Source: Morchella semilibera
Lineage: Eukaryota > Ascomycota > Pezizomycetes > Pezizales > Morchellaceae
Assembly: GCA_009192285.1 (NCBI GenBank)
Contig: WBVU01000012.1
Location: 868,001 to 932,000, forward strand
Reading direction: 5' to 3'
Length of the DNA stretch: 64,000 nucleotides
Below are positions 820 to 62,504 of this stretch, piece after piece. The first letter of the stretch is position 1. Each line of letters begins with the position of its first letter. Made by a program: the position numbers and the translations under genes. The notes beneath the pieces were generated by a model. It was not told where the DNA came from and made no database searches. It saw only the letters and a program-made list of their open reading frames with translations.

Positions 820-2535
820 TTTTTGGTTTGGTTTGGGGGTTTGGGGGTTTGGTTGTGGTGTGTAAAGAATGGAAGGTCTCTGCGAGCACAGCTGCGAGAT
901 CTGAAGGAGTGAATGAATGTGTGTGTGTGAAGGAGTGTGGGTGAGTGAATGACTGGAGGAGAAAGGCAGAGGTGGGCAGGAGGTGGGTAGTTATACGGCG
1001 ACTGAGGCCTGACCGGTGGTGTTGGTTTCTTCATATCATGATCATATCGGTTGACAATTCGCTAACTAGAGAGAGAGACCGCAGCATCCGTAGAGTACCG
1101 GCCGGACAGACATTGCACTCGACTCCCCTGGACCCTTTCCCCAGACCGGTGTTAAAGATAGAACCCACACACCGGGGATCTGCGCAGGGATCAGTCTGGG
1201 CCGGTTAGCGAGCAGGTTACTTGCAGTAACTGTCGCCCGGTGGACGGGTGTTATTAACATGCTTATTATACATGCAGCCGGAGAGGAGAGTGCGGCGCGG
1301 GTTTAATTGTGCCTGTGTCGGTCGCCGGTGGTCCCGGGGCTGTGTGGAGATCTGATAAGACGGATTAGTAATCTGTGGGTCATGGTGGATCACTCGGTTT
1401 GGCTGCGAGTGATGGGAATTGACGTTGACTACAGAGGCGTCTGTAGAGATAGAGTCACGTAGGTTAACTACATGTAATCCCTGACTCTGTGTATGTAATT
1501 GTTGCCCTACACATACTGGCCCAGGTGTCATTGTGGTCCAACAAGTACTCAAGTACGTGTATCAATGGGTAGAGGCTTTGCAGTGTCTACAGATATGAAC
1601 CGGTGACAACCATAACTGTCCTTGTGTGTATGGAAAGCACCATTCAATCCCATAGCTCTAAGTAAGGACTGTATCCGTCCCGGCCTCGACGAAAAACACG
1701 GTCGGTCTACACCACCAGGGTTAGGTCTCGCCGCATCCTATTCCTGGCCCAGCGTGGGGGCGGGCTGATGTAAGCGGCAGATCTCACTCATGCATGTGTT
1801 CCGAGTGATGCCTTGTGGATAAACACCAGCCCGGAAGACTTCTGCGTACAATACTCACATCTACCGACCGACGGGCAAACCCCGCACAGCAAAGTAAAGC
1901 AATGTACCAGCCGGACGCGCGTCCCGATCGGAATACAGGGCCAGGGGTGTGTCTCCCACCGCAGGCACAGAGTTGCCGGTGCATCTGCGATGTGTGCGTA
2001 CCGACTTACTGCAGCAGGCCACAGCCCGTCCGGCACAGCTAAGCTTTGGTCCTGTGGCCGGTATAGTTGATGTTTGTGTTTGCCATGGTAGGTTTTTCTC
2101 CGTTGCTTCAGAACTACCGCCACGTACTGACTGCTGATAGACCTGCACCCCCGAACCGGTCCCAATCCGCAACTCACTACCCCCCGGCCAGCGACACACG
2201 CACACCGCGCGTTACAGCGGCGTGACAAGGCCGGTCATGCATTCATGCATTCTGCACAGTCGATACCGGGGAGGGGAAACTCAACACCACGCCGCTACGC
2301 TACGGTCAGGGTCAGTACTCGCCCGGGGATATCGTATATAACGCTCCCTCCCCGCTCCAACATCTCTCCTCCCATCATCACTCACCACATTCACTAACAC
2401 CGTCTCTTAAGCAGTGCTTGAGACCCCACCTTCCTTCCTTCCTTCCTTCCACCACTACACTACAAAGTCTTGAAAGCAGCGCTTAGACACCACACTCCTT
2501 CCTCCCCAACCAACCAACAAACCAACAAACCAAAA
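820..2535. promoter_or_regulatory. Shared 1.7 kb upstream region of two divergent secreted-protein genes
   Basis: This region lies between the starts of the minus-strand (GGPR)n gene and the plus-strand collagen-like gene, so it must carry both promoters. The plus gene has TATATAA at 2335-2341, preceded by GTCAGTACTCG at 2311-2321. The minus gene has a weaker TATAAC (plus-strand GTTATA near 990). ACCGGT palindromes occur near 1012, 1145, 1596 and 2152. Two CGAGTGAT cores face each other at 1389-1396 and 1406-1413, and a third is at 1802. I see no convincing gene inside. Confidence 0.6.
2410..2505 (+). promoter_or_regulatory. Duplicated 5' leader box of the collagen-like gene
   Basis: Two related ~30 bp boxes lie at 2410-2438 (AGCAGTGCTTGAGACC...) and 2475-2505 (AGCAGCGCTTAGACACC...). 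Both end in CTTCC-type repeats; a CTTC run occupies about 2431-2450. They start 69 and 134 bp after the TATA box, so they probably lie in the transcribed leader. A third copy is at 38894-38926, upstream of another secreted-peptide gene. Confidence 0.55.
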
Positions 2536-3174
2536 ATGCACACACCAACCCTCCTCGCCGCCCTCGTCGCAGCCCTAACCCTCACAACCGCCGCAACCCC
2601 CCTCCCAGCCCAGGGGGCCGCCCTCTCCACACGCAGGCTCGGCCCGCTGATCACGCGCCCCCCCGGCGCAGGCGCCGACCCCTTCCGCCGCCGCCCGCGG
2701 GGCATCTCGGGCGGCAACAACGCTGCTGTGGGCGATGACGATGGTGACGATGAGGATGGTGACGAGGAGGAGGAGGAGGGCGTGATTGTGGCAAGGTCGG
2801 CGGACAGGAGGAGGCCGGCGATGGGCGTGCCTGGTGGTGGGCGCCCGCGTGGCTCGAAGCAGCCGGACTCGAGGCGGGGGCTGGCGCGGAGGTCTGGCGG
2901 TGGCGGCGGCGGCGGGAAGAGGGCGAAGGGTCCTGGGGGGCATGGGGGGCCTAGAGGAGGTGGGAAGGGCGGGCCGAGGGGACAGGGTGGGCCGGGTGGG
3001 CCGGGTGGGCAAGATGGGCCGGGTGGGCAAGGTGGGCCGGGTGGGAAAGGTGGCCCGGGCGGACATAAAGGACCCGGTGGGCCTGGCGGGCCTGGTGGGC
3101 CTAAAGGGCAGGAAGGACCAGGCGGACCAGGCGGACAGGAGGGGCCCGGGGGACAGGGCGGCGAGGGTAACTAG
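2536..3174 (+). CDS. Secreted collagen-like protein (Gly-X-Y repeats)
   Basis: A 212-residue protein. Residues 1-20 form a signal peptide. A middle section carries several dibasic sites (RR at 33-34 and 118-119, RRR at 51-53 and 91-93, KR at 128-129) where Kex2-type processing could occur, and an Asp/Glu run at about 67-81. From residue 143 to 211 there are 23 uninterrupted Gly-X-Y triplets (GKG GPR GQG GPG ...), with an imperfect stretch before them. The ATG in context CAAAAATG follows a TATA box 195 bp upstream. Proteins with collagen-like repeats are known from some fungal surfaces, for example Metarhizium MCL1, where they help adhesion or shielding; such a role here is inference. No intron is needed. 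Confidence 0.8.
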   Translation: MHTPTLLAALVAALTLTTAATPLPAQGAALSTRRLGPLITRPPGAGADPFRRRPRGISGGNNAAVGDDDGDDEDGDEEEEEGVIVARSADRRRPAMGVPGGGRPRGSKQPDSRRGLARRSGGGGGGGKRAKGPGGHGGPRGGGKGGPRGQGGPGGPGGQDGPGGQGGPGGKGGPGGHKGPGGPGGPGGPKGQEGPGGPGGQEGPGGQGGEGN

Positions 3175-3846
3175 GCGGAAAATTTATTTAGAATGTATTA
3201 GATAGACAATATACGAATATATAAACCTGGTCATGATTAAGTGTTCAGTTCATGTGTGCATGCGAGTACCTGGTATCTCGTGGTTCGTAGAAGATGGTCG
3301 GTGGGCTAAGGGGATTCGAATGTATCTATAGAATTACTTATAGCAGAGATTGGATAAAAACACAATGGACATCAATCTAATATCCGTATTGGATTGGTGG
3401 CTGGGACCTTGACGTTTCAATGTACTTTGATGAGCCGGCGGACATGTCATCAACGGATCACGAGCACTGGTGGGTGGCTATACTCGTCTACCAGCACAAG
3501 AACCAGAAAACGCGAGTGATATCTTATACTTGGGGTGTAGTTGCAGGTTCTTGGCAGGGACGTCGAGTGATGTCCTGTGATCTCCGCACGTCATGTCACC
3601 CCTGCATTGATCATCTTTTTTTTTATTACTCCATTAATTGTATTTGCACTGACCATCACGTCCGACCGTTGAGACACACATGGCTATCGCAAAATTAATT
3701 ACCAGGTCCCGGGGGCGTATCATCTATAGCTACCTAAAACCAGCAACAAACCTCGCGCGATCGAACAAAGGAAAAGAATAAACCAAAAGACAAAGACAAA
3801 GACAAACAATGAAACAATGCGCAGACACCTCACAATTAAGATCTAC
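3175..3846. other. Intergenic, converging 3' ends
   Basis: This is an AT-rich 3' flank with no convincing gene. Two direct CGAGTGAT motifs lie 51 bp apart at 3513-3520 and 3564-3571. The right end (about 3780-3810) is rich in CAAAGA repeats, which read as a T-rich 3' tail for a possible minus-strand gene to the right. Confidence 0.5.
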
Positions 3847-4132
3847 TCAAACGGGCTCCTCCCCGCCTCCCCATGCCAGCTGCAGCGGTGGTGGCGGTGG
3901 CGCCGCATCTTGCTGCGCGAGTTCAGCGCCTTCTGGTTCGGCGGCGCGCTCTGCGCGGGGATGGGCTCCTTGCCGCGGGCGGGCGTCTCGGGGGCGTGGG
4001 CGGGCGTCTCGGGGCGTGGGCGGGCGTCTCGGGGGCATGGGAGTGGGCGTGCGTGCGGAGGCGGGACGGCGCGCCGGGGACTTGCGCTGTGGTGCGGCGC
4101 TGGGGGGTTGTGGGGGGTTGTGCGGTGGACAT
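3847..4132 (-). CDS. Possible Pro/Arg-rich repeat ORF (doubtful)
   Basis: A minus-strand TATATA (about 4261-4267) precedes a GC-rich block coding for Pro/Arg/Ala-rich sequence. Starting at the ATG at 4132, the frame gives 69 residues and stops at 3923. A second frame, open from 4392 to 3847 but without an ATG after the TATA box, covers the rest. The block contains a minisatellite (GGGCGTCTCGGGG units, about 3981-4038) whose units differ by one base, which shifts the frame between copies. There is no signal peptide. It could be a short basic protein, a frameshifted gene or simply GC-rich non-coding DNA. The T-rich downstream tract resembles the 3' flank of the gene at 268-819. Confidence 0.25.
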
Positions 4133-7959: not shown

Positions 7960-9154
7960 TTTGGGATTTGAGGTTTGTTGATTGATCGCTTGAGTGGGAG
8001 TTTTGCCGATTTTGGGTAGTTTTTTGTGTAGGATGTGGATTTAGAGCCGATATTGTAGTGATTGTTTTATTTAATAACGGGTGGGGAGCGGCGTGTTATA
8101 TCCCGTTCTATACAGTTTCAAAGCAAAATTCAATGGTTATTTCTTTCATGATTCACAACTTGAGCTAGTTTGCTTTCATGCTAGGGTATTTGAAACGACT
8201 TGTACTTTAAGATACATGCAACCGAAACCTAAATAAACTTGGAATAGGGCCAGATCTTAAGAACAACCGACCCGAAATCCAATCAGGTGGCCCAATAATT
8301 ATAGGCTATACCATACACTAAATACCCCAATTCCTAGACACTCCAGGCACATACATAACGTCATATATGATAACGTATGCGCGCCAATGGTCACTAATAC
8401 TAGTACACGAGCTCAAGCCTCAATTGCAACCTCAGTAATTATGCCCATAAGCTAAAACTAACAGCGGACAATTGTTGATTGAGTTTTTGTTACAGTAACT
8501 CAAATAAATTCAAATTACGCATGAGGATAATATATTTGGCTTTTTGCTGGATTTTACAGCGATAATGCTTATTGATGTAAACAAAAAAAAACAGTGATGG
8601 TGCAGCACAGATCAGGAGGAGTATGATGTAAACAAACAAAAAAAAAGAAAACAGCACTGAGGAGCTTTCCGAGTGATATATTGTGATTGAACGAAATCGA
8701 GCGAGTGATACCTCGTGAAGGAATATCAAGCCTGCGATTGTTGTTGTTGACAGTTCATTAGTTAACCAAATCTGCGATAAAAAAAACCCGTACAGAAGCA
8801 ATATATTATTAGGCCACGTTTAAGTATCTGTATATATCGCACAAATAATCTAACAGAACCCTGTATAGAGTAGTTTAGTATATATGTATTGTATTGATAG
8901 TTTTTTAAATGAAGATACATAAATTTAAGGCTGCGCTTAGACCAGAGTACGGCCTTGATTCAAGAGCACGGTTGTAGAAATCTATGCCTTTCAAATCATT
9001 CGTTGTCTGTGCAAAGACTTCTAGGTACTTTACATTCCTCCAAAGAAATATTTACCCGTAAAGTTGTATTACTATCAGTGGTATAATACATACAACAATC
9101 TTTATAGCTACAACCTTCATTCTCCAAAAATATCAACTTACCCACACATAGCTT
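7960..9154. other. Intergenic with tandem A-rich repeat and paired motif
   Basis: No gene is supported. Two copies of TGATGTAAACAAA followed by an A-run lie about 50 bp apart near 8574 and 8622. Two direct CGAGTGAT motifs lie 32 bp apart at 8670-8677 and 8702-8709. Confidence 0.45.
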
Positions 9155-12052: not shown

Positions 12053-14990
12053 TAAAGCCTAGGGACGGATTTTACCCTACCTGTGTATGCATATATTGCA
12101 AAATATATGTATCATTCTTAAGACAACACCCCCAATTCCGCCCTTCGTAAATGATCCATACCGTTTTATTGACAGAACCCAACCCAAAGGCCCGTTACTA
12201 TCGACCAGATAACATGGCGTATTTTGAAACAGACAATAGAGATAAATCCCCAGATCTTACACTTCAGGGGCCAGAAATATGCCCCGATTTCCTTCCTCTA
12301 CAACCATATTCCCAGAAAGATCCACAAGTCTGACTACCCTCTACTAATACAAAATCAGGGACCCGGGTCACGCATTGATAAAGGCGGGCAAGACCCACTC
12401 GCTCTGGGGTTATCCTCCTGGCTCTTTCAGAAAGTCCTATTGGATTGTCCCGACATTGGATTTGTCCCGACTATGGTAACTCTTTAGCGTTGTGCAGGGA
12501 GCGGCATTTTTCTTTACTATCAGGTATGGTAAAAGTGTTCATGGGTCTTATATCAGGTTCTATGGCCCGTTGTACTGATACTTTTATCAGGTCTTTGAAA
12601 TATAAGCTAGCGTATACGTAGACATTTGATTAAACTTTAAAACTCTAGAAAATGGTACCTCTGCTGGCGTTGATCATCCATGCCATCTGGGACTCTATTA
12701 TAGCCGTGAGAGAGTTCAAAAAAATAGGTTGAGATGCAGTCAGTAAAACCCTCTAGTCCTCCCTCTATCGTACGGTCTGGCTTGGATTTACTACTTGAAT
12801 TCAAGAATCTTCCCACTCTCCAAGGACCAGCCCATACGATATGAAGACAGATATACTTCCTTGCATGCTTGTAAGTACATGTATAGTACACGCTTCGCAA
12901 GTACCCAAACTGACCTCTAAAAGCGTAGGAACGAGCCTATACCGGGACAGGTGGTTTTAATAAGCAATAGATCTAGATTAGCCACATGCACCCCCCACAC
13001 CCACCACCACACCTCTTCCCCACGATAATCTCCGCCTTCAAACTAATAGATGATCACATCAGCAGGCCAGCGACGTAAAAAAGAAATAAAGAAAGGTGGG
13101 GGGTAAAAACCGTACACTAAAGCCCAAAATAACCAACAAAGTTCTTTCTCGGTAGCATCTGTCTTGGGTTATCAATCGGCAGAAGGTGGGGGGTAGTTGC
13201 CCGCATCTTCTACGAGGACATCCACTCGATCGAGACACAACTCCCTCCCGCGCGCTTATAACGGAGCCAACTCTACATACTTTCTTGGATCCTTCCTAGC
13301 TAGACTATACTCCCGGGAGATACCTCTGATAGTAGGTCGGCACAAGCGCCTACCACAAACACACAACCGCGATACAGACGTACGGGCGCTACCGCTAGAG
13401 CCCCCGCTATTTATTGCAACCATCAAACAGGCGCCAGGTAAATTTCGAAAGCAAGGATCCACCCTAACTAAATCTCTAACAGTTGTCCACCTGAGCCTAT
13501 GATTTGAGATCAGTACTTGGATACACATGTGAAACGGAACTCTCAGCGAACTAGAACCCGGTGGCAACCATCACTGGCACATGATAATGAATCCTGTGCA
13601 ACACACAACCTAGCACGTCATGCCCTGCATGAATGGCCGCAAAGGAAGACTTCTATGACGCCGACTACAAAAGCATATAGTTTAACCAAGGTCATAGATT
13701 TATATCGTGGAGGTTGGCACCCGAGAAACGGACGGCACGCTAGTTACGGGGGGGTACCATGCACATTTACAGGTAAATACGATATTTCATCGGACCTTAA
13801 GAGGAATAAAAATCGACCTCAAGAACATACCGCAGCATTCAATAGACATGACTGAAGAGTTGATCTCACACATCACTACTACTCACAAAGTATCACTCGT
13901 ATGTGCCATCATATACTATCACTCGATAGAGAGTCAGCCCCTGTTCGTTGCAACATTGTTTACAAATACAAGCGCGTACGGCCTCTTGAAATCAAACACG
14001 TATTATTCGATTTTACCTGTTCAATGTGTAGCTATGCGCTCAGCCTGTACTCCCACACATGAACAAAGAAAGTTTTCGATACGTGCAATCCTTTCAGAAA
14101 ATTATCATGGAGCCCTACGCATGCGACCGTTAAAACACAGGTCACTACTAAAGCCCCATTATCGAGGTCTTCATACATGCGGTAGCAGGGTGTGTCGGAC
14201 GCGGATTGTTGCTTGCCTACGCTGATAAGTTAAAATGATTCAATTGATCAAAACCTGTGAACTTATGTTTACTAGATTGAACTAAATAAACATGACAGCA
14301 TAACTTGGGAAGCACTTAAAAAGAAGTTCTCCGGTTATCTGAAGGTACTAACGCCCAAGTAGAAAAGGTAGAGGCCTTGTCATCAAGTATACAAAACCTC
14401 TAGCTAGATCACGAAAAGACTTCCCCTCAATATAAAATAGCCTCCCCTCTTATACATGGAGATCTCGAGAGCCTTATCCAGCTATACCAGAGGACGGGTA
14501 TATATTCATTTCTCATGGCCCTCTTAGTTAGTTAGTGTCAAGCCAGTGGGTGAATTTCAATATCGCTTCTCACTACATATATATACGTTACCCAGAGGGG
14601 TCAGGACCGGACCATCGCCATGTACAAGTACATCCTTGGAGGATGTTTGGAAGATGCTATTTATCTTCAAAAGGTCGGTGAGTATCCGATCACAGCGGCC
14701 AACAAGAGATTTAGAAAAGAGTGTTTCAGAATATCTAAAGTAATAGAACATTTAATTTGAAGGATTTATTTCTACTACTGTTAATGTATTTCTAGTCCCC
14801 GCACGCCCCTGTGCTCATGTTCCATAACCCCCTTGATGTCTACCTTACGCGTAAACGACGATAATAGGAAAAATAAATCTGGCTCGCCTAAAGACCCCAC
14901 CTTCTATATATCCCAACGCCCCAAGAAACAAAGCATGAAATCAAACCCAATATTCGGTTAGTGTATATATCGTAAACCAGTTCTATCCCT
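12053..14990. other. Intergenic, 2.9 kb
   Basis: There is no convincing gene. The longest plus-strand frame (13707-14225, 172 codons) has no recognisable motif and is within chance length. TACATGTA is at 12876-12883. Two CGAGTGAT motifs in direct (minus) orientation lie at 13892-13899 and 13918-13925. Confidence 0.45.
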
Positions 14991-16072: not shown

Positions 16073-16073
<1 letters not shown>

Positions 16074-16104: not shown

Positions 16105-16107
<3 letters not shown>

Positions 16108-18937: not shown

Positions 18938-19084
18938 GTTGCCATAGCCTAAGGCTACATACATATATAAATAATGGCGATTTGCATTTTATTCATGAAA
19001 TATCACTCGTTACAACTAACACCGCTCAGCTACATGCATCCACCCATACTTCATAAATCCATGCAGCCCTTAGGCTATGGCAAC
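18938..19084. mobile_element. Inverted-repeat (MITE-like) element
   Basis: A perfect 17 bp inverted repeat, GTTGCCATAGCCTAAGG at 18938-18954 and its reverse complement at 19068-19084, bounds 147 bp of AT-rich non-coding sequence. The similarity continues imperfectly about 7 bp inward. No clear target-site duplication is visible. Confidence 0.5.
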
Positions 19085-19332: not shown

Positions 19333-19408
<76 letters not shown>

Positions 19409-22087: not shown

Positions 22088-23147
22088 TGCTCGGGGCTTG
22101 TAATTGAGTCGGACAATCTGCCTGTGGCTGGTAGCTTACAATTCCGGGGGGATGTATGGATAAATATTAACCACATTTAGCTTCACTAGAACATTCGGTG
22201 CCATCCTAAGGGGTTGGAAAAATTGAGGATTGATGACTCAGTTAACTATATCAAGTCTCCGAACCAGTCTGCGTGCCGACAGCTCTCATGGGGCTACATC
22301 TGGTGACAGACGCTACGTGTTCCTACGAACTGTCCTTGAGGCCGCATCAATGAAGTAATAAAAAAAATAAAAAAAAGTCCTTGAGGCCGCAAATCATGGC
22401 TTAGAGCGCCGAGTGACAATACATGACTCATGCCGACATAAGCAAATCTAGTCCGATATTAAATCCCCCTAACTTAAACGAACAGTCATACAGTTCGACT
22501 CTAAGCTATAATATCCGATGTACTGGACAATTGTTTCTCCCTCTCTGATTATCTGATCTCAGCCCCGCCCCATATCTACTTATCGATAAGAGGGTGGCTG
22601 GTGGTGACTTCAGCGTGACTCGACTCGGTAGATAGGTGCCAGAAAATAGAGTCACGGAATTGAGTCACGGAATAATGGTTGTGGCTGGGACCGGATGACT
22701 CGACGTGTAAATGATTAGTAATCAAGACGCAGAGATTCTAATCGTAGCGAGCAGCTCAAGTACTTGAGTAAGTAGGTTTGAGTGTCGATCACTTGTCTTA
22801 ATCTCTATCACCTACTAGACCGAGACCTTTTGTTTCCTCTATTAAATATGTATCTAGAGTATTGCAATTCGATTTCTCGCGCGAGTGAAAGCCTATTTAT
22901 CATCTATAATATATGCATGCCTGATTGACAATACATACATGTATATATACTCCACTTCAGTGGTTGATCCTTTCATGTACTTCGCTCGAGAGCATAAGTT
23001 GATCACCTTCTTATTGCTAAATATTGTTACCACTATAATCGACTACTTGGCCAACGCACAATACCAAGCTCGTCAATACGTGTACCTTTTTCAAACCCTT
23101 CTATACCACGCCATATGATTTTCTTTTTTATCCGGATTTAGATCTTC
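22088..23147. other. Intergenic
   Basis: There is no gene. It holds a tiny retroposon at 22332-22391 and one TACATGTA near 22936. Confidence 0.45.
22332..22391 (+). mobile_element. Minute poly(A) retroposon with 15 bp target-site duplication
   Basis: GTCCTTGAGGCCGCA occurs at 22332-22346 and again at 22377-22391. The 30 bp between them end in an A-rich tail (AATAAAAAAAATAAAAAAAA). This looks like an extremely 5'-truncated LINE/SINE insertion with the same architecture as the one at 4539-4664. Confidence 0.6.
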
Positions 23148-23645: not shown

Positions 23646-25405
23646 AAGAGCTGTATAGCTGCTTATAAGTACATAACTGTTAGCACCATCTTGCCCTCTG
23701 ATTGCATTTGAAAAAAAAAAAGGGGACTATTCAACATTCTATTTCTTTTTCATCACGGGCACGAGATTGAGATATCTATGAACCCTAAATATCAGAAACG
23801 AATTGAACTTTGAATAGTATTAAAACAGAGATCTTCGTTGTATAAGCGCCTCCCACAAACCTAAAATATGAGTTATCTCGAGGGAATCGAGTGATAAACT
23901 ATGAATCTTATTTTCATTATCCTAGTCTAGGTTAACGTGATGTTATTAGAAATCAAAAGACCAATATATGATATTTCGAATCTTCTATAGCGTTACCACT
24001 GGACCTGAAGGTAAAATAGAAAAAATCGATATAAACCTCTTATCATGCAGCTGGCCAGGAGCGGTTCACGGCCAATATTCAAAGTCTCCTATCAACGTAC
24101 TCTGAAAGATATTCTGCTCCACCTTAACCAAAAAAATCTACTAGTCAGGCTTCGCCATATTATCGTATCGTGGGGGTGTTTGTGTATTCAGGAGATATGA
24201 TTAATATTTTTTCCCCTCTCTCTTAAAGGTATTTACATCTTTATCTTAATATCTTATGTTCTCAAGCACAAAGGGCAAAATTACAAGTTAATGTTTCAGG
24301 ATTCAATAGAGCTTTCCGAACTTATAGTAGGAGGTCGCCTCTTGCATGCAGGCGATAAAGCTTATAAATGCAGCATATGCTTAATAAACAGTCCGTAATA
24401 ATACTTCCGCTCTTGAGAGCCCGACTCTACAGACACCTTCACCCCTAGGTCCTCCACCGACTGTGATCGATCGCTGTCTATATCCTGCCGGGACCCTGAT
24501 ATTCGCTTTCCTCCCTCTCTAAGAAACTCTGCTCGCCTGAGAAATCACGTGGTATTGTGCTTAGTTGTAGTCGTACATGTTGGAGTATGTTGGTATATGG
24601 ACATCTCGAGAAACGGCTGAAAACGCCTAGAACAGCATTATAAGCGGACCATTTTCGACAAGTGATTATGGCTCATTTAAACACAGCCCGTATTCAAACG
24701 TCAAAGGACGGGAGGACTTGCATGAGTTGGTGAGATATAAGCTTGTCGGGAATTATTTTCTGCTGAATTGTTCCACCAACATCCCGAGCCGTCCAGAATG
24801 TAATCATATCAGACCGCTTTAAGTCCTCTTTATGTTGCCAAAGAACCGCTCCCGTTGCGATCTAGAAGCTTGGCAAATGGCCTCGCATATGCGGAAAGCC
24901 TGCCGTATGCAGGATGCCCTTCTATACATATGATAGAATTATCCCACAGTCAGCCTACATCCTCTCCGGTCACCCTAACCAGCATACCGCCCCAGAGCGC
25001 CGCGGAATCTGACGCAAACACCACCTCAGATCCCCGAGATCTTTCAATACTGGCACACGATCCGCACTATAACGGGCTACGGGAGGGAAGGCTGCGTTTT
25101 CGTAATATTAGCATGGCTTTCTTCTATAGTGCAACTATGATATAGTTCCGGCCCATGCAACATAAGCGTTGATATAGGAGTAGAAAATCTAGTGAGCGGT
25201 TAATCTTACCACAATTTACCACCTTTTCAGCCCAGTCATAATTTTCAAAATATACCGGGGTTTTCCTCGGCGAATTCATTGTTTCTAGATATTTCTAGCA
25301 GTTCGTACCTCTGGTCAACCCAAACATGTTAGGGATTTTTGGTTGACCCGGGATTCTCGCGGCAACCTAGAATTCCACAGCACAATTTTCCAAGCCACCC
25401 TCAAC
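23646..25405. other. Intergenic, AT-rich
   Basis: No gene is supported. One CGAGTGAT motif lies at 23888-23895. The short plus frame at 24855-25145 has no recognisable content. Confidence 0.45.
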
Positions 25406-26011: not shown

Positions 26012-27570
26012 GGTGATAACTATCTGTGCTAGTAGGTGCTAGAATCTGAATGCTGGTATTCTCTCAGTGTGTACTGATCTCCGACTTTCTCTTGGACGAT
26101 TTCCAGGTCTTCCTATATAGAATTGTGTATCTTTCATCTCTATAATGACGACGAAGATGAATTTTGCGGCTTGAAATCGAAACGAAGTCTTCTCGTGAAA
26201 TAGACTTATCACGTGATCATGACATTTTGAAGGTGTCCTCCGACGGAAGCGATGTTATGATCAAAACGCGTCTTTATTCGGACACACGACACGCCAGTCA
26301 CACGGGACGTTGAATTATGCATCTTCTCCAAGGTGCTACCGACAACTGTTCAAACACAACGGTACATGTACCTAAGTACGTACATGCATGTCACCACACG
26401 CGCCTGACTCCGAATCCCGTCGCCCTGGCTAATCATAAATCAGCGCCCCAATTGTAATTGCTATTCCAGAGGAGGGAATCTTTACTCATCCCCTGAGAAT
26501 TTGCAAGTTCGAAGGCAGGTATATATTTTTGCCCTTAAGATCCTCGCTTGCCCCAACCTAGGCAAGGGGTCGGTCACATTAAAGCCCCGCACGCGATGTC
26601 ACTGTCAAACGTCAAACGTCAAACGTCAAACGTGCAAACGTCGCTTCTATCACCGTGTCATATCGTGCTGTGGCGTAGTACATTCCTTGCATGCCTCAAC
26701 TCCAATAGCGCTTATACTCCCCTGGGTGATTACATGTTAGCACCAGAGACATCACGGTCCATCACTCGACGAGGGCCAAGATCGTCACGTGAGCGTGCAG
26801 CCGCAACTATAGATGCAGACACGGCGGAGTCCCAACGACCGACCGATGGCTGCAGGCAAGGATACACTATGACGGGTTTCGAGAGGGGGATTCGCAGAGT
26901 CGCAGAAAGTGAGGCAGGTTTGGGGGAATGAAGGAATCACGGCAAGCCTGTTTAAGACGGGACGGAAGAAGCCATGCTGCGACGGTTAAGGATTTGAACC
27001 ATGGACGTTCGTATCAGGTGACTTCCATAGGAGTCCAGGCACGGAATTCTATCTCCAATTCCGAAACTCTACCGATTGTTCTTTTCCGCGCAATAGCTGT
27101 GAGAAGATGAGGCTGTGGATGGGGCGGGTGTTTGAATCACTCGAAGATATGAACCAAAAAAAATTGTTTGACCTCTCATGTTTTCATTTCTAATTAGAGT
27201 TATCGAGAAGTCGAACAAAGCGTTTCGTAAGGGAAAAACATGTATCGCAGTCCAAAGCAGCCAACTAGTTAACCCATAACAATTATCCTCCACGCAATGC
27301 CAAAAAAGGAATGTGAGACTGCTTTAGAACAAAAAATATAAGAAGAGAAAACATGAATGGTTCCTAACAGATCTTTTTTTTTATGTTTTAAAAAGGTTTT
27401 TCTGAAGTATAAAGGAATCGCACAAAAGAAAGCATGAGGATGCAATCATTAGGAAGAATAAAAATTAAACCATTCATCAATCTCACAATCCTATCACCCC
27501 GCCCATCGAAGTTCGTGGCTGGCTACTATAGAGTAGTAGCTGTAGGCCGGCCATTGTAGGCGAAAGGCGC
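26012..27570. other. Intergenic
   Basis: Four copies of the 7-mer GTCAAAC lie in tandem at about 26604-26631. CGAGTGAT motifs are at 26761-26768 and 27136-27143, and TACATGTA near 26363. No gene is supported. Confidence 0.45.
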
Positions 27571-37699: not shown

Positions 37700-38893
37700 T
37701 ATATATCCATATCACATCGCGGCCGAAATGCACTTTTGACCTCTTAGTTTATTATCCCCAAGCAGAGCCTGCAGATCACATGAATCAAAAAAGCAAATGT
37801 TTGGATTGGTGGCCTAATCACGGGAGGGTTTATCACAAAACCTAACCCTGGCGGCGGCGGTAATGATTGATATACTAGTTCAATAAAACGCCTAACACCA
37901 TAGAAAACTAGGGAAATGGACGTCAGGGGAGCAATATCTTAGCTGGGGATGTGAGATTTGTTAAATGTTCTAGGGTGCGGGCCGTTGCTTGTTTATTGGT
38001 GATACCAGGGTACTAGTGCCGCAACGGACGATAAAAACACCCTCTAGTATTAACAGAGGCCCCATTATGGCTGCTCCTATATTTGGTAGCGAGCAGCGCT
38101 AAATTATTTCGAGTGATACTTTATGAAGATAACCTGACCCTGATAACACCACACATAGCTTTGGGGTAGTGCAGTCTAAGAAGCTTTATGAATCGAAATC
38201 GTGTTTACCTGATTCTTCTGAGGTTGCGCGTCGCGAGCCTCGGATGCGTAAAATTTCAGTGTGTGTGGTGTTGGTTGTCGGTCCCGATCGGTCGGAATAC
38301 GCATAGAGCCTCTAAAGGCCCCGGGTGTCCCGATCAGCGCACCCGTTCAACTCGGGTTACCGAATGCGGCCCTGGGGTCTCACCGGGCGATCAGGTCTCG
38401 TGTAGCCAGGCAGGCACTGACCGGTCACCGGTGTAAGTGCAACCATAAAACATTTCGGGTTTTGACCGGTGCAGTGTGTCCTGTTGCCTGGAAATCAGGT
38501 CGATTTAATGACTGGTGGGGTCAGTATAGGTGAGGACCAAATACACTCAATACCAAGCGCCCAAGCCCAGTCGATAAGGATAGGTATATCGATATCATGT
38601 ATGTACCGCGCCTGCTTTGCCGCCTTACCGATATAGCTTGGTAGCGATTCGGTATCCAGAAGCACTACCACACACCGGTGCGCGTCGAGCTTCACAACTC
38701 GCGCTCGCGCCTTGTCTGTCCGGTGTTCCTTGCTTTACGCGGCGTCATTGGAGCTAGGTAGACAATGCAATGTTTCATGCCATCTCATCTGTGTCTGTAA
38801 ATATCAACCCTCTGTATATATAAAACCTCTCTATGTCCCCCCCCTCTCTCTAGCGTATTCATCCCAAGCAAGCATTCTAGTCCAAGAGTCTCT

Positions 38894-40824: not shown

Positions 40825-43800
40825 TCTGGCTGGTAGGTTTGGGGGGGACTACTGGCTAGCAGTAGTGGTAGTATAAACGAGTGTCGAAGGGTTGGATTAT
40901 ATTAATACGTAATAGCCTTTTTTTCAGCCTGCTGAATCGAGGACAAGGAGGTAAGGACAGTGGATGTGGTGTGTTAGCGTGAGTTCACCAGAAACTACGC
41001 AGGAGTGTGGATTTTCTTCTCGAGATGGTGAAGCCGGTTTATATGAGAAGCTTGGCCTGGCTGGAGTGTCCGGTGCGACTCTGCGCGGTGCTAGTACTGG
41101 TTTTAGCTGCGGTGAGAGGCACGGATTGGGGTATTTCTGTGTTTCGTCTTATATCTGCCATCACCGAGACCGTAATGGAGGGTGTTTGTCGTTGTATTAC
41201 CTCACCGGAAGGTGTTTTTTGTGATGAATTTTTGGGTTTTTGCGGGGGTTTGATAGCTGGTAATAATCTTTACCCCCCCCCCCCCAATGTTGTGTACGTT
41301 AGTTGCACGGATAATGATAAGTTAAGCTTAAAAGTGCCTTGTCCTTAGGCTTATTGAATATAAGGCGAATTTATTCCTCGCTACCTAGGATGGACTAACT
41401 ACATGTAGGGATATGCAGAGACCGCTGTTGGGGTTCGCGCCCAAAAACCTTTCAGGCTCGACCCGGTTTGAAATAGTAGCATCGCTCAAAAAGGTCAACT
41501 TCAGCCCAGTCATCTCACGATCATAATATGATCATCGACCTCTCTATATCAAGATGAGCCCCATCCATGGCTAGCTGAAACAAAAATATGGCTTACTGGG
41601 CATATAGATGGACACAGGTGATAGTACTAGTTTACTAGACATCACTCGGTAAATCCTTGATATCTTGCTATGATTGCTTTCTAATAAGTGTTCGGCGAAG
41701 CTTCGGTAGGGAAATTTCTCTTGGCAGTACGTAGCAATATGCAATGAATAGAAGAAAGCTCGGGTGAGAGATTCGGCTCCACGGTGGGTTGGATGGATAA
41801 GGTGCCTACTGAAGAATATTCCATTCTTAGATACCGATCAGCAGTTTCTAGTAGCCGGTGTGATAACTCGTATTCGATACAGGGTATTAAAATTACCCTT
41901 TCATGTGTGTACTGGCTAGCTGGTACTGCGCCTAGTAATAGCACTGGTGAGGGCTGCAAAGTCATAACTAAGCATTGGATGGGTAGCTTGGCCGGTCTTT
42001 ACTAAATTACTAATCCACCAACAGTTATGAAATCGTAGGTGGAGTTGTATTCTATTTCGAGTAGGTACGAAGGTTGCAACCTTACTGATATTTTGACCGG
42101 AAGATGGCACGGGCGTGCCAAGTCCAACGGTGTGACCCGACGTTGGACCTCCCCTGTCGGTGGTTTCAAAGACGGCAACACCATGGTGAAACGGCTTTTC
42201 CATGAGGCCTCATGTATAGTAGGTATTATCAATGATTTCTTCTTCCTATTTCAATCCAATATATATAGAAGAGCGTCTGGCAGAGATAACTAAACAAAAA
42301 GCTTAGAAAGGAAGCTTAAAAATCAAGGTCGCAACTTCCGGGTACCTGGTCGGGCACAAATGTGAGCATTTCAATGTATAATGAGAGGGGATATAAGGGA
42401 TATCAGGACATAGGTCGATTCATGTGAACCTCCAGCGGCCAGTAATTTATCCAGAAAATGTCCTTATCATAGCTTTCTCAGATATTGAGCTACATAAGTA
42501 CATATTCTAGAAAGGCCATTCCCCCTGGCAAGCTCCAATATATCGGGAGATATTGTGACCCTCACCGCAGTAATAGACCTTGTCGGGAGCGGTTCTATGA
42601 CAACGGAGACTAGTTGGTCCTGGGAGCCACCTGTTATTCCTTACGAATGAATAATTGTTCGAAAAAATATCCCCAGTTTGTTAGTCAGGTACGTTCCTCA
42701 ATACCTATCTGGCTTCGGTTAAGCTCATGATCATACTATCCGCACCTACCTAGAGAGAAACTTCTCTGAAAATCCCACCACGACTACATGTAGTAACTAC
42801 TACTATATGGCCCATCCTTGATAACGGCGCTAGGGATACTACTTCTTCAACTTGCATATATCGATCAATGCTAGTAGTTGTCGCGATTGGAATACCCAAG
42901 AGGTGAGCGGGCCGGGGCCCCAAGAGGAGTAAAATCTCCCACTGGTATCATCATTAAATCAGCTATCAGCTTGGATTTGGCCTGTGATATTTTCAAATAG
43001 ACTGGGTTGTAATTGTGCTAGCTAGGCCAAGACTTCTGCAGGTTGGGAAGGCTTACTCATTTATGAGTATTCCGGAGTTCTTCAACGGTGGGTACATTTG
43101 GAAAGATAATTGAAACAATGAACCCATTGACATAAAGTACGTACTTAGGGTTTCCCTGGCGGATGTATATCGCTTACGGGAACAGTTCCTTACCGGGAGA
43201 TTCGACAGGTTTTACAGGGTCTTGGGGCAGTGAGAGGGTTGCCCTATAGGCCTAGCTATCGCTAAACGATAGTTCCGAATGGGGAAATTGGTGATTTGAT
43301 CATGACTGCCGGTATCATAATATTTGGGGCATGGGTGGACCTTGACTGGTAAGCTCTTATAGTTAGAGGTGCGTTTGTGTGGTTTTCTATCACAGTACTT
43401 CACCGACTAACAAATAGCGTCAACTATTCCGTTCTTTTCACTTAATAACTTTATGTGTCGTTTTATCACCCCCTTTTACTCTAAATACTGGTTTACAGCG
43501 AGGGCCTCTAGGCCTGTTTCTAGGCTTCTTCCGGATTTTGAGCTGCCCGACATTCACACGGCATAAATCGCACTCCTGGATGGACCGTCACAGGCTCGAA
43601 TTCAGGTTTGGGCTCAAGCGTACGCGTGGCACGCCTAGTTTATTATTGAATGCCTGGATAAACCTTTTGCAGTTCTGCGTGTGGTTGAATTATGATAAGC
43701 ATGGAGATCACGCCTGGTATTCGGTTTAGGGACCGTATTCTATATTGCGGCCGGCCTTTTGGGAACCCCCGGCTCCCTTATAAAGCCTGTGTGGGCTCTG

Positions 43801-44153: not shown

Positions 44154-46146
44154 GCATTTTTTTTTTGAAAATGCCCATTTGACCTCTGCCCCCCGCACTT
44201 TCCTCACCCCGCGCCCAATCACATATGCACACAAACTTCAGGTTCTCATGAACTGTCTTTGTCTGAGCTAGGGCTGAATCTCTCTTCAGTCTGGACCGGG
44301 TTACCGAATGATCAATTCGGACCGTAGGGTGAGTTAGCTCGGTCGCTTAGGGCCTGGGCTAGTAGTACCCGGGCTACAAGCATGGGCTCAAGGTACAGTG
44401 GCGGACACACAGAACCGACCATCAAACTATCCTTCACCAACTGACTCTCAACACCACAACACCTATCCAGGGAGAAAGTCCTTGTGTAAAATAGTTCTGT
44501 TCCCTACTCTCAGCAGTCCTACAGAAGGGATTTCGGAATAAACCGAAAATCACTTTCCCATAGCCTCTAGAACAACTTGATCAATTGAGCTTGCAGTAGA
44601 CAACACAATTGAAGTCTCCACAAACTGTCTCTATTGATTGGTACTTCATACATGCATGCAGTCGGTATGTTCTATGAAACGCAACTTTTTAAGTTTAAAG
44701 CTTATGGATCAAGGTAAGAAGCTTGATCTAATCCACCTCAGAGAGCATTGGTTTGAGTCTTTTTTTTTTTACACTTTTGGCATGCCGTGCTATTATGGAA
44801 TTCGAAGGGGACGGGGAATGTATGGTAAACTTATGCTTAGAGCCCTATATATAAACAGCCACCGCACAATAAAGATTTTTTACCCATATTTCTGCGCTTA
44901 GTGGCCCGCCATCTCTCGTGCTTAAGTACCCCTCAACCCAGAAGCGGATCGCATGGATCATAAGAAGTCACTCGATTGTCTTGGCGAAGTCTCTAAGCCG
45001 TTTTGAACCAGGCCCAATAGACGAGTGGAATCCACGAGGGCTTTGACAGCCAAAATATATTAAAGCTTTGATCCAAAGATCTTTCTATTGTATCTCAGCT
45101 TTCGAACTTATATCGAAAAGGGAATGGTTAATTGCCCATTTTCTCTGTCCTATCAGTTAACCGTGGCCGAGTTCTCGAGATCTCTATTCGGCGCTAGCCG
45201 CCGTAGCCCGATAACTCGCACTGAGTGAGTAGTGAGCAGTGAGTAGATTTCTAGCTTAGCACAAGCGTTAGAGGCCCTCACATATCGAGCTCAATGAAAT
45301 GTCTTTACTCACATGCTGAGCCTAGAGCTGGCTAGCGATTGATCTTAGCTAAAGCCTACCCACCGAGGCCAAAAGGACACCACGTAGGTTTGTGGAGCGG
45401 ACCTTAATTCTACTAGCTATAATAATTGTACTATGATTACCTCATATTTCCTATTCATTTGGGTCCTTACAGGCGAGTAAAAGCGGCTTCTGTTACTACT
45501 GGTCACTATCCCTTGCCCTGCCTGCAAAGAGCGCCCCCGCAAAGTGGTAGGCCAAAGTACAGGCATCTATGAATAGCTTCACAACCTTAAAATATATTAA
45601 AATTCTGTTTGAGATGAGAGCATTTAAGAGGCTCCACATTTGAATAAGAATTCATGGCTTCTGTAATTGTCAAGTTATTTGGGTTTTGGTGTATTGTCTT
45701 TAGGATTAGGTGCGTGCACTTACAAAGAAGAGTAGATAGCCACATTGGACGGGATATATATATATATGGTCACAACCATATATAGAATCTATTGTATTAT
45801 TACTTTTGATGAGATACTTAGGAAGTCTCTTGGATGCTATATCTGCTCCTGTACCAAAGAGAGTTTTAATATCTTTTGTGGTTGCGAAGTTCTTAAAGAA
45901 TTGTACCTGTGCTCTTGCCTGTCACTATTTCACACCATTATTTTGGTGGGGGCGGGGTACTGTGCGCCATCACGAAGATTTCTTGGTAGTGGCTGTACAA
46001 ACAAAAAAAACAAAGGGAGGGAGGAAACAAACCTATCACAGTACTTACCTGAACTGTGATGCTAACAAATTTCACAGTATCACATACTTACCAACTTACT
46101 AGGTCTTACCTGTGATTCCTTCCCCCCAATGACTTAAGAACGGCCC
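43856..46146. mobile_element. 2.3 kb element with ~150 bp terminal inverted repeats, no transposase seen
   Basis: The left end has two tandem copies (period 153 bp) of a ~150 bp sequence starting GGGCCGTTCTTAAGCC at 43856 and 44009. Both contain CAGGTAAG, a TCGGTAAGTATG segment and TTCCGGGTAAGTACTGTG, and end GTTTG near 44153. The same sequence lies inverted at about 46001-46146, ending CTTAAGAACGGCCC at 46133-46146. The interior has no long ORF, so this is a non-autonomous or decayed DNA transposon. TA lies a few bases outside both ends but the exact boundary is unclear. Confidence 0.65.
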
Positions 46147-49100
46147 GCGCCAGAAAGTATAAAAATCTGGCTTGGAGCGGGGTAAAATTTACCCCACAAC
46201 GTTAGATACTTAAAATTTTAAATTAACTACCCTATCACCTACCACTGTTCATGACTACCTCTCTCTTGCAGGTAAGTGTGAAGTTGTTGATACGTGAGCT
46301 CTTTTTATTGTGTCCGGTAATAGTTTAAACTCTTGTAAGTCAAGTCAGTCTTGATATAAATAACTGACTGTTTCTTAGGGAATTTTAGGTTTTTCTCCTC
46401 AAAAAGTGTACTATAATATTGTAAGAAGCATACGCCGAACTCAGAGAGAGTCTTGTTGCTGCTTCTCCTCTGAATTAGTACCGATCATAGAAGACCCAAC
46501 GGCAAATGAAACAGGAGCCTATGATGGGGGGCCATTCCTCCCTCGAGTCACCTTGATCAGCCCCGCTCGAGTCCTGCCTCGAAGCTCAATACGATGGTGT
46601 TGACTATTACAGACAGAGAGGGGCGGTAAAAGCTCAAGGAAACCTCAGAGAGCCCCTGCCCCCCCCCCAAGCACCGTAGGCTGACGGCCGGTGGTAGGAG
46701 CCCCGAAGAAGCGGACTTCGGTTTTTATCTTGCTTCTCTAAACTGCAGCATGCGCTCAATTCTTCAAGAGCTCCTACATTAACAATCTGCCGGGAAAGTG
46801 CGAAGAATTTGTGGATGGTTAGAATGGTAGAATATTAGAATCATGAGGCATCACTCGCATAGCTCAACCGCGCCAAGTGACTGATAATTGAAGTTGAGAT
46901 TTTATCATCGTAAGCATTTGTGACCGCAAAAAGGCTCGCCCGGGTCTTTATGAACTTACGTATCATGGCTGGCCTGACTAGAGGAAGCCGAGGCCGGGCC
47001 TGGTTATAAACAGCATTCGGCAAGTAGTTTTTGGTACATCCTTTATGATCCCGGCTTTACGTCCCGAAGTCTGATCCCATTTTCCTTCTGAAGAACTACT
47101 GCAGGCGTACAACAGGACCCCCTTGCCTCATCCATTACTTCTTTAACACCGGCTCCTCGGACCGATGATAATTCTATGAAGACAGAGTCCGACTTCAATG
47201 GAGGCTAGGGCTAGCCTGGCTAAAAAATATCCGACCCCAAATAGGGTCGGAACGTGTATATAATAATCTAGGTTTATGTGGAGTTAGGATAGCCTACCGG
47301 CTCGACTTGAACGAGAGCTCTCTTCTTTAGAACGAAAACATCTCTAGCTAACCGGGCGGATAATATATTATGCATGTGGTACTCAGCAGAGAGCTGCCGC
47401 TGGGTGGTTTCTTTTACTCAGACTACCGTCTTAAGCTGAACACACTGTAATACTATACCTTCCGATCGGGTTAGTACTACGTCCCTTTACCACCATGCTT
47501 GTGCGAAAGCTAAACCGGTTTCTCTCCCGGTACTTACATCCTCACACTGGCCTTTGTATTTCTAAGGCCTTGAACAGTAGATAGTTGAGAATGCTTTTCT
47601 GAAGCAGAATTCTGGAGGAGGCGGTAATGAGTACCACCAAAAATGTTTCCATGGGCGATTACGTGTAGTAACGAGTCAAAACCGCGGGAGATCTTTGCCC
47701 TCGATTATGTCCACGACCGCAGATCCCAGCACCCGCACCACCCTAGGCCTGGGTTCCCAGCTCGAGGCGGGGGGATTAACCCAAGTAAGCGGTCTCGCCG
47801 AACATGTAATAGATCCAAGTTAAAGTTTGCAGAAGCTTGACAGACTCTATACAGTGTCAACCTCCATCAAGCATACCCCGCCCTTGGGGGCAACCATATG
47901 ACTGCAAACGAAACACCCCTTCCTGAGCCCAAGGTAGCACCGAAAAAGATGCCGGTCCCTTTTGAAATCTTGGGACGATCTTATATGTATGTATGTATCT
48001 TGGGACTGTAAGGTCGGAGTTAACTGATAAACCAGACAGTAGTGAGTTTCGGCCTTAACTGATAGAGTGGCATCGAATAACGCCTCTGGGGCTTGTGAGT
48101 TTGAGGTTTGGGGTTTGGCTCTAAAGGGGGCCCATTAAGTGTTCCAAATAATTGCAAAGTACCTGGTTGTCGGTGGGTGCCGAGGATTTGAGAACCTGAA
48201 AGTGCACCCTCGAAACTCATATAGTGGGGGTGGAGGTCTCACAACCCGAGCTTTTAGGTTTCGTCTCACATTGCTCGCCTGCAGCTTGCTCCTGAACCTT
48301 AAGTCCTCATATAGTTTCTTATTACAACATCTGGCTGGTTATCCTCATGAGATTCTTGACGTTGTGTATGGAATAGCCTATGTCCGATGGGCTGGAGAGC
48401 AGAAGAGCTCGGCGAGTCCTAATAGTACGTTCCTAGCTAAGGAACCCGGCCAATAAATTAGCAGTTAGACACAGAATTTGGCTTTGTTTGAACAGAAACT
48501 ACTGATTGTGTATTCTAGTCCTAGGCCTAAAGAAGACCTACGAAGACAATAACAAACCCATATTTATCAATATTTAGTTGAATAACACCAACAGATTATT
48601 ATGTGGACTGGAGACGCATTGTAACGACACCCCTAGAAGTAGAACCACCCAAGATCTTTGCTCGAACCTCGAAAATAGATACGGCCAGAATGTTCCAAAG
48701 AGTCGAAAACTCGGATCGAGGTGACTGTCAAACCCTAACCCTGGTTGTTTGGAAATGATCGGAAGTGTTGTAAGGGTAACACCTTGCTAATTGAGTTGCA
48801 GAGAGTAGCTCTGTGCAGGTTAATTGGCTATAGGTAAATCTAGGGTAACCCTGGATGTTGGGCCAGTTCATGCAGATAGGTTGCGCGCAGATAAGTAATA
48901 CTCTAGAGTCAGAATTGGAGTAGGGATATCAGCTTCCTACTATTCTATTAGCTCTAGCAATCGTTAAGGATCGAGATAGCAAGACAATGAGCTGAAAATG
49001 ATATTAGAATTTAAAACAGCATGTTGTAGTGACAAAAGATTGCAACTTTCCTGCAGTCTTGTCAGGCTGGGCCCAGACCCCGTAGATTCGAATCTTCTTT

Positions 49101-54495: not shown

Positions 54496-56252
54496 ATCAT
54501 TTTTAACTTTTATTTATTTACGTTTGCATTTCAAGGGAGCGTAGTGCATGGTCAGGGACTCTTATGTTGTGCATCATTAACCGTCACTCGTCGACCGTGA
54601 GTGGAACTGGCGGTGACGTTTTTCTTAGACTTTTTTATATTTTGCTGTGGGCGGGATGGATTTGTTTATTTCGAATTCCCTGGCCCAATGGCCAAGTCGG
54701 CATCTTCATGCAATTTCCTTTGTTCTTTGTCCTTTGTCTATTTCATATGCTATATACTTTTTATCGTTTGAGAGAAGGGTGAGCATTTATTGGCTTAGGA
54801 TGGGAAGAGAAATCGGGGATGGGGTGGTGGACTTGCAAGACGAGATTTTCAATTCTTTGTATAAAATTCACATACAATCTTTTTATTTCCTTTACCTCAG
54901 TATAGCATAGTTTTTAGTCAATTATACATACCCAATTCGATTCTCTAGTAATTGCGGGGTCGTTGGTTGTTTCTTTATCCCTTGCTTGAAGCGAGTTTCA
55001 CAGTATATACATGTATCTCTACATGTAGTCTTAAAAATTATTAGTACCTGCAAGTAATTAATCATGCATGCATGCATGGTCCATCAATCATAACCTTCTC
55101 TATTTAAGTACAATGTAACTTACATGCATGAAGCAATGTCGCGTGCCGTCCAGTACACATACATGTACCCCGGGTACATAGGTACATTCCTCATTATCAC
55201 CACCCACCACCCCACCCAATAACACCTGTATTACTAGGTATGGGGGGGGGGGGGGGAGCTCTTTACCGCTGTTTCTACCAGGTGGCGGAGGATCTTGTGT
55301 GTGGGGCGCGCGCGGGGGGGGGGGGGGGAGATAATGTGTATGATGATGATGGTGGTGATCGATGACGGCGATGATGGTTCATTAACTCCCTAACTGGACT
55401 AGACTAGACCTAGACCAAGACCTAGACAATAAAATACAAAAATGCCGTCGAGAAGCACAAAGAAGAAAAAGAAAGAAAAGAAAAGAGTCTCCCCACTCTC
55501 CTCACTGCTGCCCGTCCCGCACACATACATACATGTAACCGGTACATGGTACATACACTGGTAGAGTAAGCCACAGCAGGTGCCTGGAGGGAGGAGGAGG
55601 AGAGAAGTTCCCCCCCCCCTCTCTCTCCCCACAAACTAATGTTAGGATGTCGATATCGTACGGTGCCAGTGGGAAAAAGAAATGAAAGACCTTTCTTTTG
55701 TTTTGTCGCTCCCCCGCTTCCTTCGTTCTCTCTCTTCCCCCGCTCCGCTTCCTGGCTTGCTTATGCTTATCGAGAGGGAGAGACAGCAGTGAGACAAAGA
55801 AGAGACAGATAAGATAGACAGGTGACCCGACCCTTGGGGAAAGCAATTCACTGATCACACAAAGGCATAATACAAAGGGCTAATCGAACCAGCCCAGCCC
55901 AGCCAGCTAGAAAAGAAGGAAGAAAGTAGTTTTACAACATTGAAACCGTACCTCAATGAAAAAAAGAGAGAGAAAACCCGGGGGAGAAAAAATAAGAGAG
56001 GATTGATTATCGTAACGTAACGTTGCGTAGAGTAAATGGCGAAGCAGCCTATGCCATGCTGCCTGCCTCATGCTCAATGCCTATGCTGCTAGTAAAAAGA
56101 AGCAGCAGAACCTACATCATAGTATGCGGGCCCATATGTAGGGGGGAAAACTACACCGCACCGCAAAAAACAAAAAAAACAAGCAAAAAAAAAGAAGCCC
56201 ACAACCAAAACAAAAGAACTAGGATAAAAATAAAAATTAAAAAACTACACCT
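54496..56252. other. Intergenic, low complexity
   Basis: The 3' flank of the SUN gene, then G-runs near 55241-55255 and 55315-55328 and purine/pyrimidine-biased stretches. TACATGTA is near 55008, 55020, 55160 and 55530. No gene is supported. Confidence 0.45.
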
Positions 56253-61507: not shown

Positions 61508-61635
61508 CCACAGTCATGCGTTGAGAGGCTGTGGGTTGGTGGTTGTGGGGGGATGGAAATGGGGTGGTCGTGGGGGAGAGGTTCCCTAGCCGCGCATGGG
61601 GGTGGGTTTAATTCCCACCCCCGGAGGACTAACTT
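61508..61635 (+). repeat. SINE-like dispersed repeat, copy B
   Basis: The better preserved copy. GTGGGTTTAATTCCCAC at about 61602-61618 is a T-arm-like hairpin matching the Pol III B box GGTTCRANNCC in all but one position. TGGTCGTGGG 40 bp upstream is A-box-like, and a T7 run follows the shared GGACTAAC. Confidence 0.5.
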
Positions 61636-62022
61636 TTTTTGCCCCTCCCTCCCTTTAAGGACCAATATAATGGCTCACGCAAGACCCGGCAGTTCTACCA
61701 GGCTCTATACAACGTACTCCGAAACTACTTTAACGCAGCTGGCGTTGGGGACACTCAGGCAGCAACTGGTCCCGACGCCCACTACTAAGCCCAGGCCCAT
61801 CAGGGGAGAAAAGTTTGCCACAGCATCCGGACAATTTGTTTACATGTATGTAGGTATATCTAGCGTTGGATACATTCTCCATTCCTATTCCTATGTAGCC
61901 AACCCAAAAACGGTTGGCCGCTTTGCCGCCGGTGCTCAACTCTACAGGACATCCGTAGCAGCGATACCAACACACACTAGCACTACACCCCATCCCTATG
62001 CCCCTAGCTAGAGCCTTACGCG

Positions 62023-62053
<31 letters not shown>

Positions 62054-62478
62054 ACATTTTGAACCTTCTTCCACTGCATTCTAGACCGCAGCCTTACGTT
62101 ATATGTGATCAATCCTGATTCTACTCAGTTCTGTTGACATCATATTAGAGGGTCTTTTTATCTGCCGTGTACGTGTGTGTGTATGACAGTGGGGTAGGCG
62201 GTTGACGGGAGTTGGTGAGAAGTTTTCGCTCTTTGTAGCTTGAGAGAGCTATGTGGCAACTCAAAGGTTAGCTGCGTGGCGAGAACAGGCCTGTGGCTAT
62301 ACCATAACTGGATTTTCCAATGGGTCTTTCTTTTTAAGTCTCTTCGCTGGTTTCTCTGAAACGTGGGGTAGTTGTCGAGGCGCCCTTCCGTTAGATGCTC
62401 CGTAGGGTGAAAGGGGGATAGAAAATTGTTCTAAAAAAAAAACCGTGGGTTTTGAGTCAACAATAATCATTGGTGGGT

Positions 62479-62504
62479 CGAGTGATATTTTGGGCTCGAG
62501 TGAT
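62479..62504 (+). promoter_or_regulatory. Paired CGAGTGAT motif
   Basis: Two direct cores 18 bp apart; the second continues GCCTTGTGA, the commonest form of the window-wide motif. Confidence 0.45.

Follow-up and report, generated by a model that had tools for sequence, protein, structure and literature searches.

A dispersed 17-bp bipartite motif in the Morchella semilibera genome as a putative protein-binding site

The sites of yeast general regulatory factors are among the described systems closest to the element reported here. The Abf1 site is bipartite, with a fixed gap and an RTGAY/RTCAY block, and poly-A/T tracts often lie near general regulatory sites in yeast. CTCF is not known from fungi. 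According to one paper (PMC2897762), yeast lineages differ in the general regulatory factors that they use, one taking the place of another, and certain motifs show nucleosome depletion in Yarrowia lipolytica alone. Here we analyse a dispersed bipartite motif, CGAGTGAT-N5-RTGA, in a 64,000-nt stretch of Morchella semilibera DNA (C11:868001-932000, hereafter the window) and in the whole genome assembly (56,756,124 bases, or 56.8 Mb, in 23 contigs). We put at roughly 55% the probability that this motif is recognised in double-stranded DNA by one nuclear protein, abundant and sequence-specific, with a genome-wide general regulatory or chromatin-organising role; protein binding, the architecture of the protein, cooperativity and role are all inferred from sequence.

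The full pattern defines a strict site, and a single change from it a one-mismatch site; the same pattern read backwards (the reversed pattern) was counted alongside as a control. Copy number, rigid spacing, tolerance at positions 5 and 7, and clustering were established genome-wide, and the non-coding location and the avoidance of transposon-rich blocks in a 304 kb sample composed of the window, an 80 kb stretch of C1 and four 40 kb blocks, one each from C2, C3, C4 and C5. Eight 3 kb loci (L001-L008) were left out of every count.

Copy number, sequence and spacing of the motif

A sequence-only reading of the window had listed 19 copies of CGAGTGAT on the two strands, with RTGA five bases later in 13 of them. 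Every listed position and strand proved correct, against a mean of 1.24 and a maximum of 4 matches in shuffled sequence, and RTGA was again found exactly five bases past CGAGTGAT in 13/19 copies. A whole-genome count near expectation had been named as the outcome that speaks against the motif; instead, the search returned 6041 strict sites as opposed to 7 matches of the reversed pattern, with the strands evenly represented (2997 forward, 3044 reverse), and 11482 sites with up to one mismatch as opposed to 394 in the control, all genome-wide motif counts being inflated by roughly 7% or somewhat more because the assembly holds duplicate stretches. These near-identical duplicates amount to at least about 4 Mb by matching coordinates: contigs C9 and C10, C12 and C13, and the first 1.1 Mb of C21 and C22 carry motif sites at the same coordinates within about 0.02-1.5 kb, a pattern suggestive of haplotype duplicates left in the assembly or of chromosome arms that the paired contigs have in common. 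The 304 kb sample held 44 strict and 29 one-mismatch sites, and 0 and 4, respectively, of the reversed control.

The gap between the two halves of the motif is rigid. RTGA lay at spacing five in 44 of the 59 sample 8-mers and in none at spacings 0-4 or 6-8; genome-wide, the seven spacings from 6 to 12 combined yielded 499 matches versus 54 in the control, and many of the matches listed for them (100) contain a spacing-five match too. The spacer consensus first proposed, RYHYY, held at both ends, the first base being A/G in 39/44 strict sample sites and the last C/T in 40/44, whereas the middle three bases were only weakly patterned. Directly after RTGA, T/C was found in 35/44 of these sites. 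The refined motif is YGAGTGAB-R-NNN-Y-RTGA-Y, within which two (G/R)TGA blocks form direct repeats 10 bp apart, that is, one helical turn. In an alignment of 49 CGAGTGAT copies from the first 264 kb of the sample, conservation begins at the C and is gone beyond about position 17; longer shared flanks, which the sequence-only reading had advised looking for, were absent among these copies. Such sharp boundaries and unconserved flanks fit a protein-binding DNA site. A 1 kb window piece with a motif pair had itself as its sole match in the genome.

Tolerance to substitution is strikingly uneven. Sites changed at position 7 numbered 2429 genome-wide (control, 37), the variants being C or G and never A among the matches listed (100, all on contig C1), as opposed to 127 changed at position 5 (control, 18), a 19-fold difference. 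The remaining positions were judged from the 304 kb sample, in which the change fell on position 7 in 13/29 one-mismatch sites and on position 0 in 6/29. In neutral decay all positions erode similarly, which is not expected of a binding site, and the uneven tolerance of positions 5 and 7 is therefore unlike it; neutral decay of an ancient repeat is disfavoured, since mismatches pile up at positions 7 and 0 and position 5 is rarely changed.

The motif also occurs in close groups. The five pairs noticed in the window (17, 51, 32, 26 and 18 bp apart; one inverted, the rest direct) were confirmed, although full motifs make up both partners only in 8670/8702 and 13892/13918, the other three pairs having one degenerate partner. 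Genome-wide, 84 direct pairs had their full motifs separated by 0-30 bases (76 once 8 contig duplicates are subtracted) versus about 10 expected; inverted pairs numbered 20 convergent and 16 divergent (15 without a duplicate) versus about 5 each. The distances within the 76 direct pairs are unevenly spread, with 0 at 17 bp, 19 at 18-19 bp, 6 at 21-24 bp and 29 at 25-30 bp, the 18-19 bp class having a p of about 3e-7 if pairs are independent. As spacer bases, compared by eye, mostly differ between direct partners, most pairs are not fresh tandem duplications. Four nearly identical head-to-tail copies with a 23-bp unit at C1:5477752-5477837 apparently represent a local tandem duplication.

Location relative to genes and transposons

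Genes were called with a home-made exon/intron/intergenic dynamic-programming gene finder, trained on the sequence of the 304 kb sample alone, which returned 66 genes and 157 introns (median 88 bases; donor GTAAGT) and assigned 64.5% of the sample to predicted non-coding DNA. This fraction contained 44/44 strict and 28/29 one-mismatch sites, as well as all 19 window copies of CGAGTGAT, in agreement with the earlier placement of these copies outside coding regions. Long open reading frames are few in the window, and Pfam comparison of ten of its frames identified one protein each of the SUN-family, SET-domain and ankyrin types. SUN-family proteins are fungal, which by itself points to a fungus, probably an ascomycete.

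The retrotransposon-rich 40 kb blocks of C3 and C5 contained 0/44 strict sites versus 12.8 expected by non-coding length; in terms of density, there were none in the 44 kb of non-coding DNA of these blocks and 44 in the 152 kb elsewhere. One-mismatch sites were limited there to 2/29, both in C5. The nature of the two blocks was inspected in ten frames picked from 20 open frames listed for four of eight loci; nine of the ten frames matched retrotransposon proteins in Pfam, and three of the eight loci (L017, L025 and L026) carried many diverged direct repeats.

In the blocks other than C3 and C5, strict clusters numbered 9 in convergent, 14 in tandem and 13 in divergent intergenic intervals, versus 6.1, 13.7 and 16.2 expected by length. 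The 800 bp upstream of called starts held 15/44 strict sites (9.2 expected) and 23/62 relaxed sites (13.0 expected, p about 0.003). Tandem intervals showed no strand preference relative to the neighbouring genes (7 same, 7 opposite). Strict clusters in divergent intervals lay on the strand of the nearer gene in 12/13 cases, or 17/23 with one mismatch, and the respective figures were 10/12 and 15/23 with genes below 150 amino acids left out; this outward bias, one of several tests and weaker with one mismatch or stricter genes, is a hint only. With 17 sites on the same strand and 4 on the opposite one, a bias toward the nearest 5' gene end seemed striking, but the ratio dropped to 10:5 for strict and 13:10 for relaxed sites within 800 bp upstream, and the bias is not claimed.

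Table 1. Motif sites and 8-mer copies in the window (positions within the window; full strict pattern CGAGTGATN5RTGA)
Positions	Strand	Class	Remark
1380..1396	-	strict	
1406..1422	+	one mismatch	TTGA tail; inverted neighbour of 1380-1396
1802..1818	+	one mismatch	GTGG tail
3513..3520	+	8-mer only	degenerate partner of 3564 site
3564..3580	+	strict	
8670..8686	+	strict	direct pair with 8702, starts 32 bp apart
8702..8718	+	strict	direct partner of 8670
13883..13899	-	strict	direct pair with 13909, 26 bp
13909..13925	-	strict	direct partner of 13883
18993..19009	-	strict	
22410..22426	+	one mismatch	CGAGTGAC; absent from the sequence-only list
23888..23904	+	strict	
26752..26768	-	strict	
27136..27143	-	8-mer only	without RTGA; possibly chance match
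31951..31967	+	one mismatch	CGAGTGAG
33397..33413	-	one mismatch	CGAGTGAC
35619..35635	-	strict	
38110..38126	+	strict	about 645 bp upstream of predicted SET-domain gene
41632..41648	-	one mismatch	GTAA tail
44958..44974	-	one mismatch	CGAGTGAC
46841..46857	-	strict	
54574..54590	-	one mismatch	CGAGTGAC; just downstream of predicted SUN-family gene
62479..62486	+	8-mer only	degenerate partner of 62497 site
62497..62513	+	strict	
63424..63440	-	one mismatch	CGGGTGAT

The site cluster at 1380/1406/1802 (Table 1) is flanked by two predicted small proteins, at window positions 268-819 and 2536-3357, both with secretion-type N-termini (by eye) and very rich in Gly, Pro, Arg and Lys.

Candidate readings of the motif

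If the motif is the site of one abundant nuclear protein, this protein would read two like-oriented (G/R)TGA blocks 10 bp apart, the first extended by a 5' CGA, and might do so through two similar DNA-reading modules on one helix face, for example as a tandem helix-turn-helix, paired-type or multi-zinc-finger protein. The sites at its disposal in the non-coding, transposon-poor genome would number about 6,000 of the strict and 5,000 of the one-mismatch class, with one in about every 5 kb, and neighbouring proteins would probably aid each other's binding at direct sites 18-19 or 25-30 bp apart. Because of this density, a genome-wide role is likelier than a narrow regulon, and the protein may mark intergenic DNA as a general regulatory or chromatin-organising factor. 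The transcription-factor or replication site put forward by the sequence-only reading finds support only in the general sense of a putative protein-binding site.

Several results weigh against a general factor of this kind, among them the weak promoter link. The upstream excess of strict sites is confined to short intervals lying at once upstream of one gene and downstream of another (6 vs 1.1), upstream-only DNA showing none (9 vs 8.1 expected); at 23/44 strict sites the closest gene end is a 3' one, versus 38% at random (p about 0.06); and 24/44 strict and 31/62 relaxed sites lie more than 800 bp from any called gene of at least 150 amino acids. The upstream-placement test is low in power, because with the same gene models TATA-like words gave 30 upstream vs 22.7 expected and CCAAT-like words 17 vs 19.1. 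Nor is there a poly-A/T excess near sites, a run of at least six within 100 bp being found at 10/44 strict sites when 28% are expected. As to the pairs, several come from the same three- or four-copy array and are non-independent, rendering the p-values too small, and the pair expectations assume uniform density: with sites confined to half the genome, expected numbers double and enrichment is halved, in which case the direct excess persists and the inverted excess is about twofold or less. The weak promoter link and the lack of poly-A enrichment speak against a factor that works just as those of yeast do, and leave scope for a role in architecture or maintenance.

A bolder reading is that a CTCF-like system has evolved in a fungal lineage, in which one multi-module protein would use about 11,000 asymmetric 17-bp sites to partition or organise euchromatin genome-wide, would be excluded from transposon-rich DNA and would have its cooperativity encoded in the 18-19 and 25-30 bp spacing; we consider this version unlikely. 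A rigid 17-bp word at 6,000-11,000 copies in 57 Mb means that something probably reads it everywhere, and the motif provides a direct handle on the candidate protein that could show whether fungi possess an architectural factor of the CTCF kind.

Alternatively, the motif could be bound by an ordinary transcription factor whose regulon is very large, and would then act chiefly upstream of particular genes, to activate or repress them. The excess of relaxed sites up to 800 bp upstream of starts, the homotypic clusters and the nearer-gene strand of strict clusters in divergent intervals (12/13) all point this way. However, convergent intervals (9 clusters vs 6.1 expected) and DNA far from genes contain sites too, tandem intervals show no strand bias and upstream sites as a whole only a weak one, and a site in about every 5 kb is more than a narrow regulon would call for; we therefore consider a large regulon possible but doubtful. 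Weak dependence on gene orientation would suit a chromosome-maintenance site bound by a replication-initiator, meiotic/pairing or CENP-B-like factor, which could be a domesticated Tc5/pogo-type transposase helix-turn-helix protein: a 17-bp bipartite layout is one read by tandem helix-turn-helix domains, and the genome contains 44 PF03221 (HTH_Tnp_Tc5) matches, many in long open frames. Yet a direct link between the motif and any PF03221 protein was not seen, PF03221 domains are commonly part of transposases themselves, and the density of sites exceeds the usual origin spacing, all of which makes such a function quite improbable. The 44 places with Tc5/CENP-B-type matches include some contig duplicates and have diverse scores, and some of them may be domesticated.

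An element read on the transcript, such as a signal in an untranslated region or a processing signal, is compatible with the predicted non-coding location and the asymmetric sequence, but the balance of strands genome-wide and in tandem intervals (7 same, 7 opposite) and the excess of inverted pairs speak against it, and we judge it very improbable. We give least credence to the footprint of a mobile or repeated element, be it a terminal tip, a target site or a decayed short repeat. High copy number and a few local tandem arrays of near-identical units, for example at C1:5477752-5477837, are what such an element might leave; however, flanks are unshared, the 1 kb pair-containing piece of the window is single-copy in the genome, positions 5 and 7 are very unequal in tolerance, spacer length is rigid while spacer sequence is free, and the retrotransposon-rich blocks C3 and C5 lack strict sites altogether. 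Of the possibilities raised by the sequence-only reading, neither a degraded-repeat tip nor a transposase site, the latter taken as part of a longer element, is supported, given the same unshared flanks, the 19-fold difference in tolerance and the lack of strict sites in C3/C5. An origin as a transposon terminus or a miniature inverted-repeat transposable element is likewise unlikely, with no long shared flanks and transposon-rich blocks devoid of strict sites.

Comparison with other words and known systems

The open-licence literature yielded, among the matches listed, no described factor of filamentous fungi with this site and no motif corresponding to the one reported here, which leaves uncontradicted the earlier statement that no family with this sequence is known but cannot show the motif to be undescribed. 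In the portions of one paper concerned (PMC5063351), a similar word occurs only inside long printed sequences of short interspersed nuclear elements.

Other words are also over-represented in this genome. The 8-bp palindrome TACATGTA occurs at 38 places in the window (e.g., 1469, 6796, 19430, 19447, 19506, 49466, 51074 and 55008) and 108 times across 152 kb of predicted non-coding DNA; at about 14-fold the Markov expectation, it is over-represented even more strongly than the CGAGTGAT motif. It is mostly dispersed, scarce in the 80 kb of retrotransposon-rich blocks (3 places) and does not co-localise with the CGAGTGAT motif (median distance 1020, versus 799 for random positions). Its sequence resembles the palindromic site of Iroquois-type homeodomain proteins. 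Deep within contigs, the short telomere-repeat words AACCCTAA and GGGTTAGG show about fivefold over-representation in the non-coding DNA of the window and the C1, C2 and C4 blocks taken together. Like the motif, the telobox AACCCTAA is in excess in the non-coding DNA of the sample (23 vs 4.8 expected), but it is shorter, less numerous in the sample and identical to the telomere-repeat sequence.

Among known systems, the sites of yeast Abf1, Reb1 and Cbf1 are likewise short, non-coding, high-copy DNA sites. The motif nevertheless matches these sites in neither sequence nor spacing, and differs from the Abf1 consensus (CGT ... RTGAY) in having its blocks 10 bp apart and a 5' CGA; unlike yeast general regulatory sites, it shows no poly-A association and only a weak promoter excess. 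CENP-B boxes and the sites of Tc5/pogo-derived helix-turn-helix proteins are also 17 bp long and bipartite, and are read by two helix-turn-helix domains; CENP-B boxes lie, however, in centromeric satellites, whereas the motif is dispersed and differs in sequence. Animal CTCF insulator sites similarly number in the thousands, are asymmetric, roughly 17-20 bp long and intergenic, and are bound by one protein, but the sequence of the motif is unrelated to theirs.

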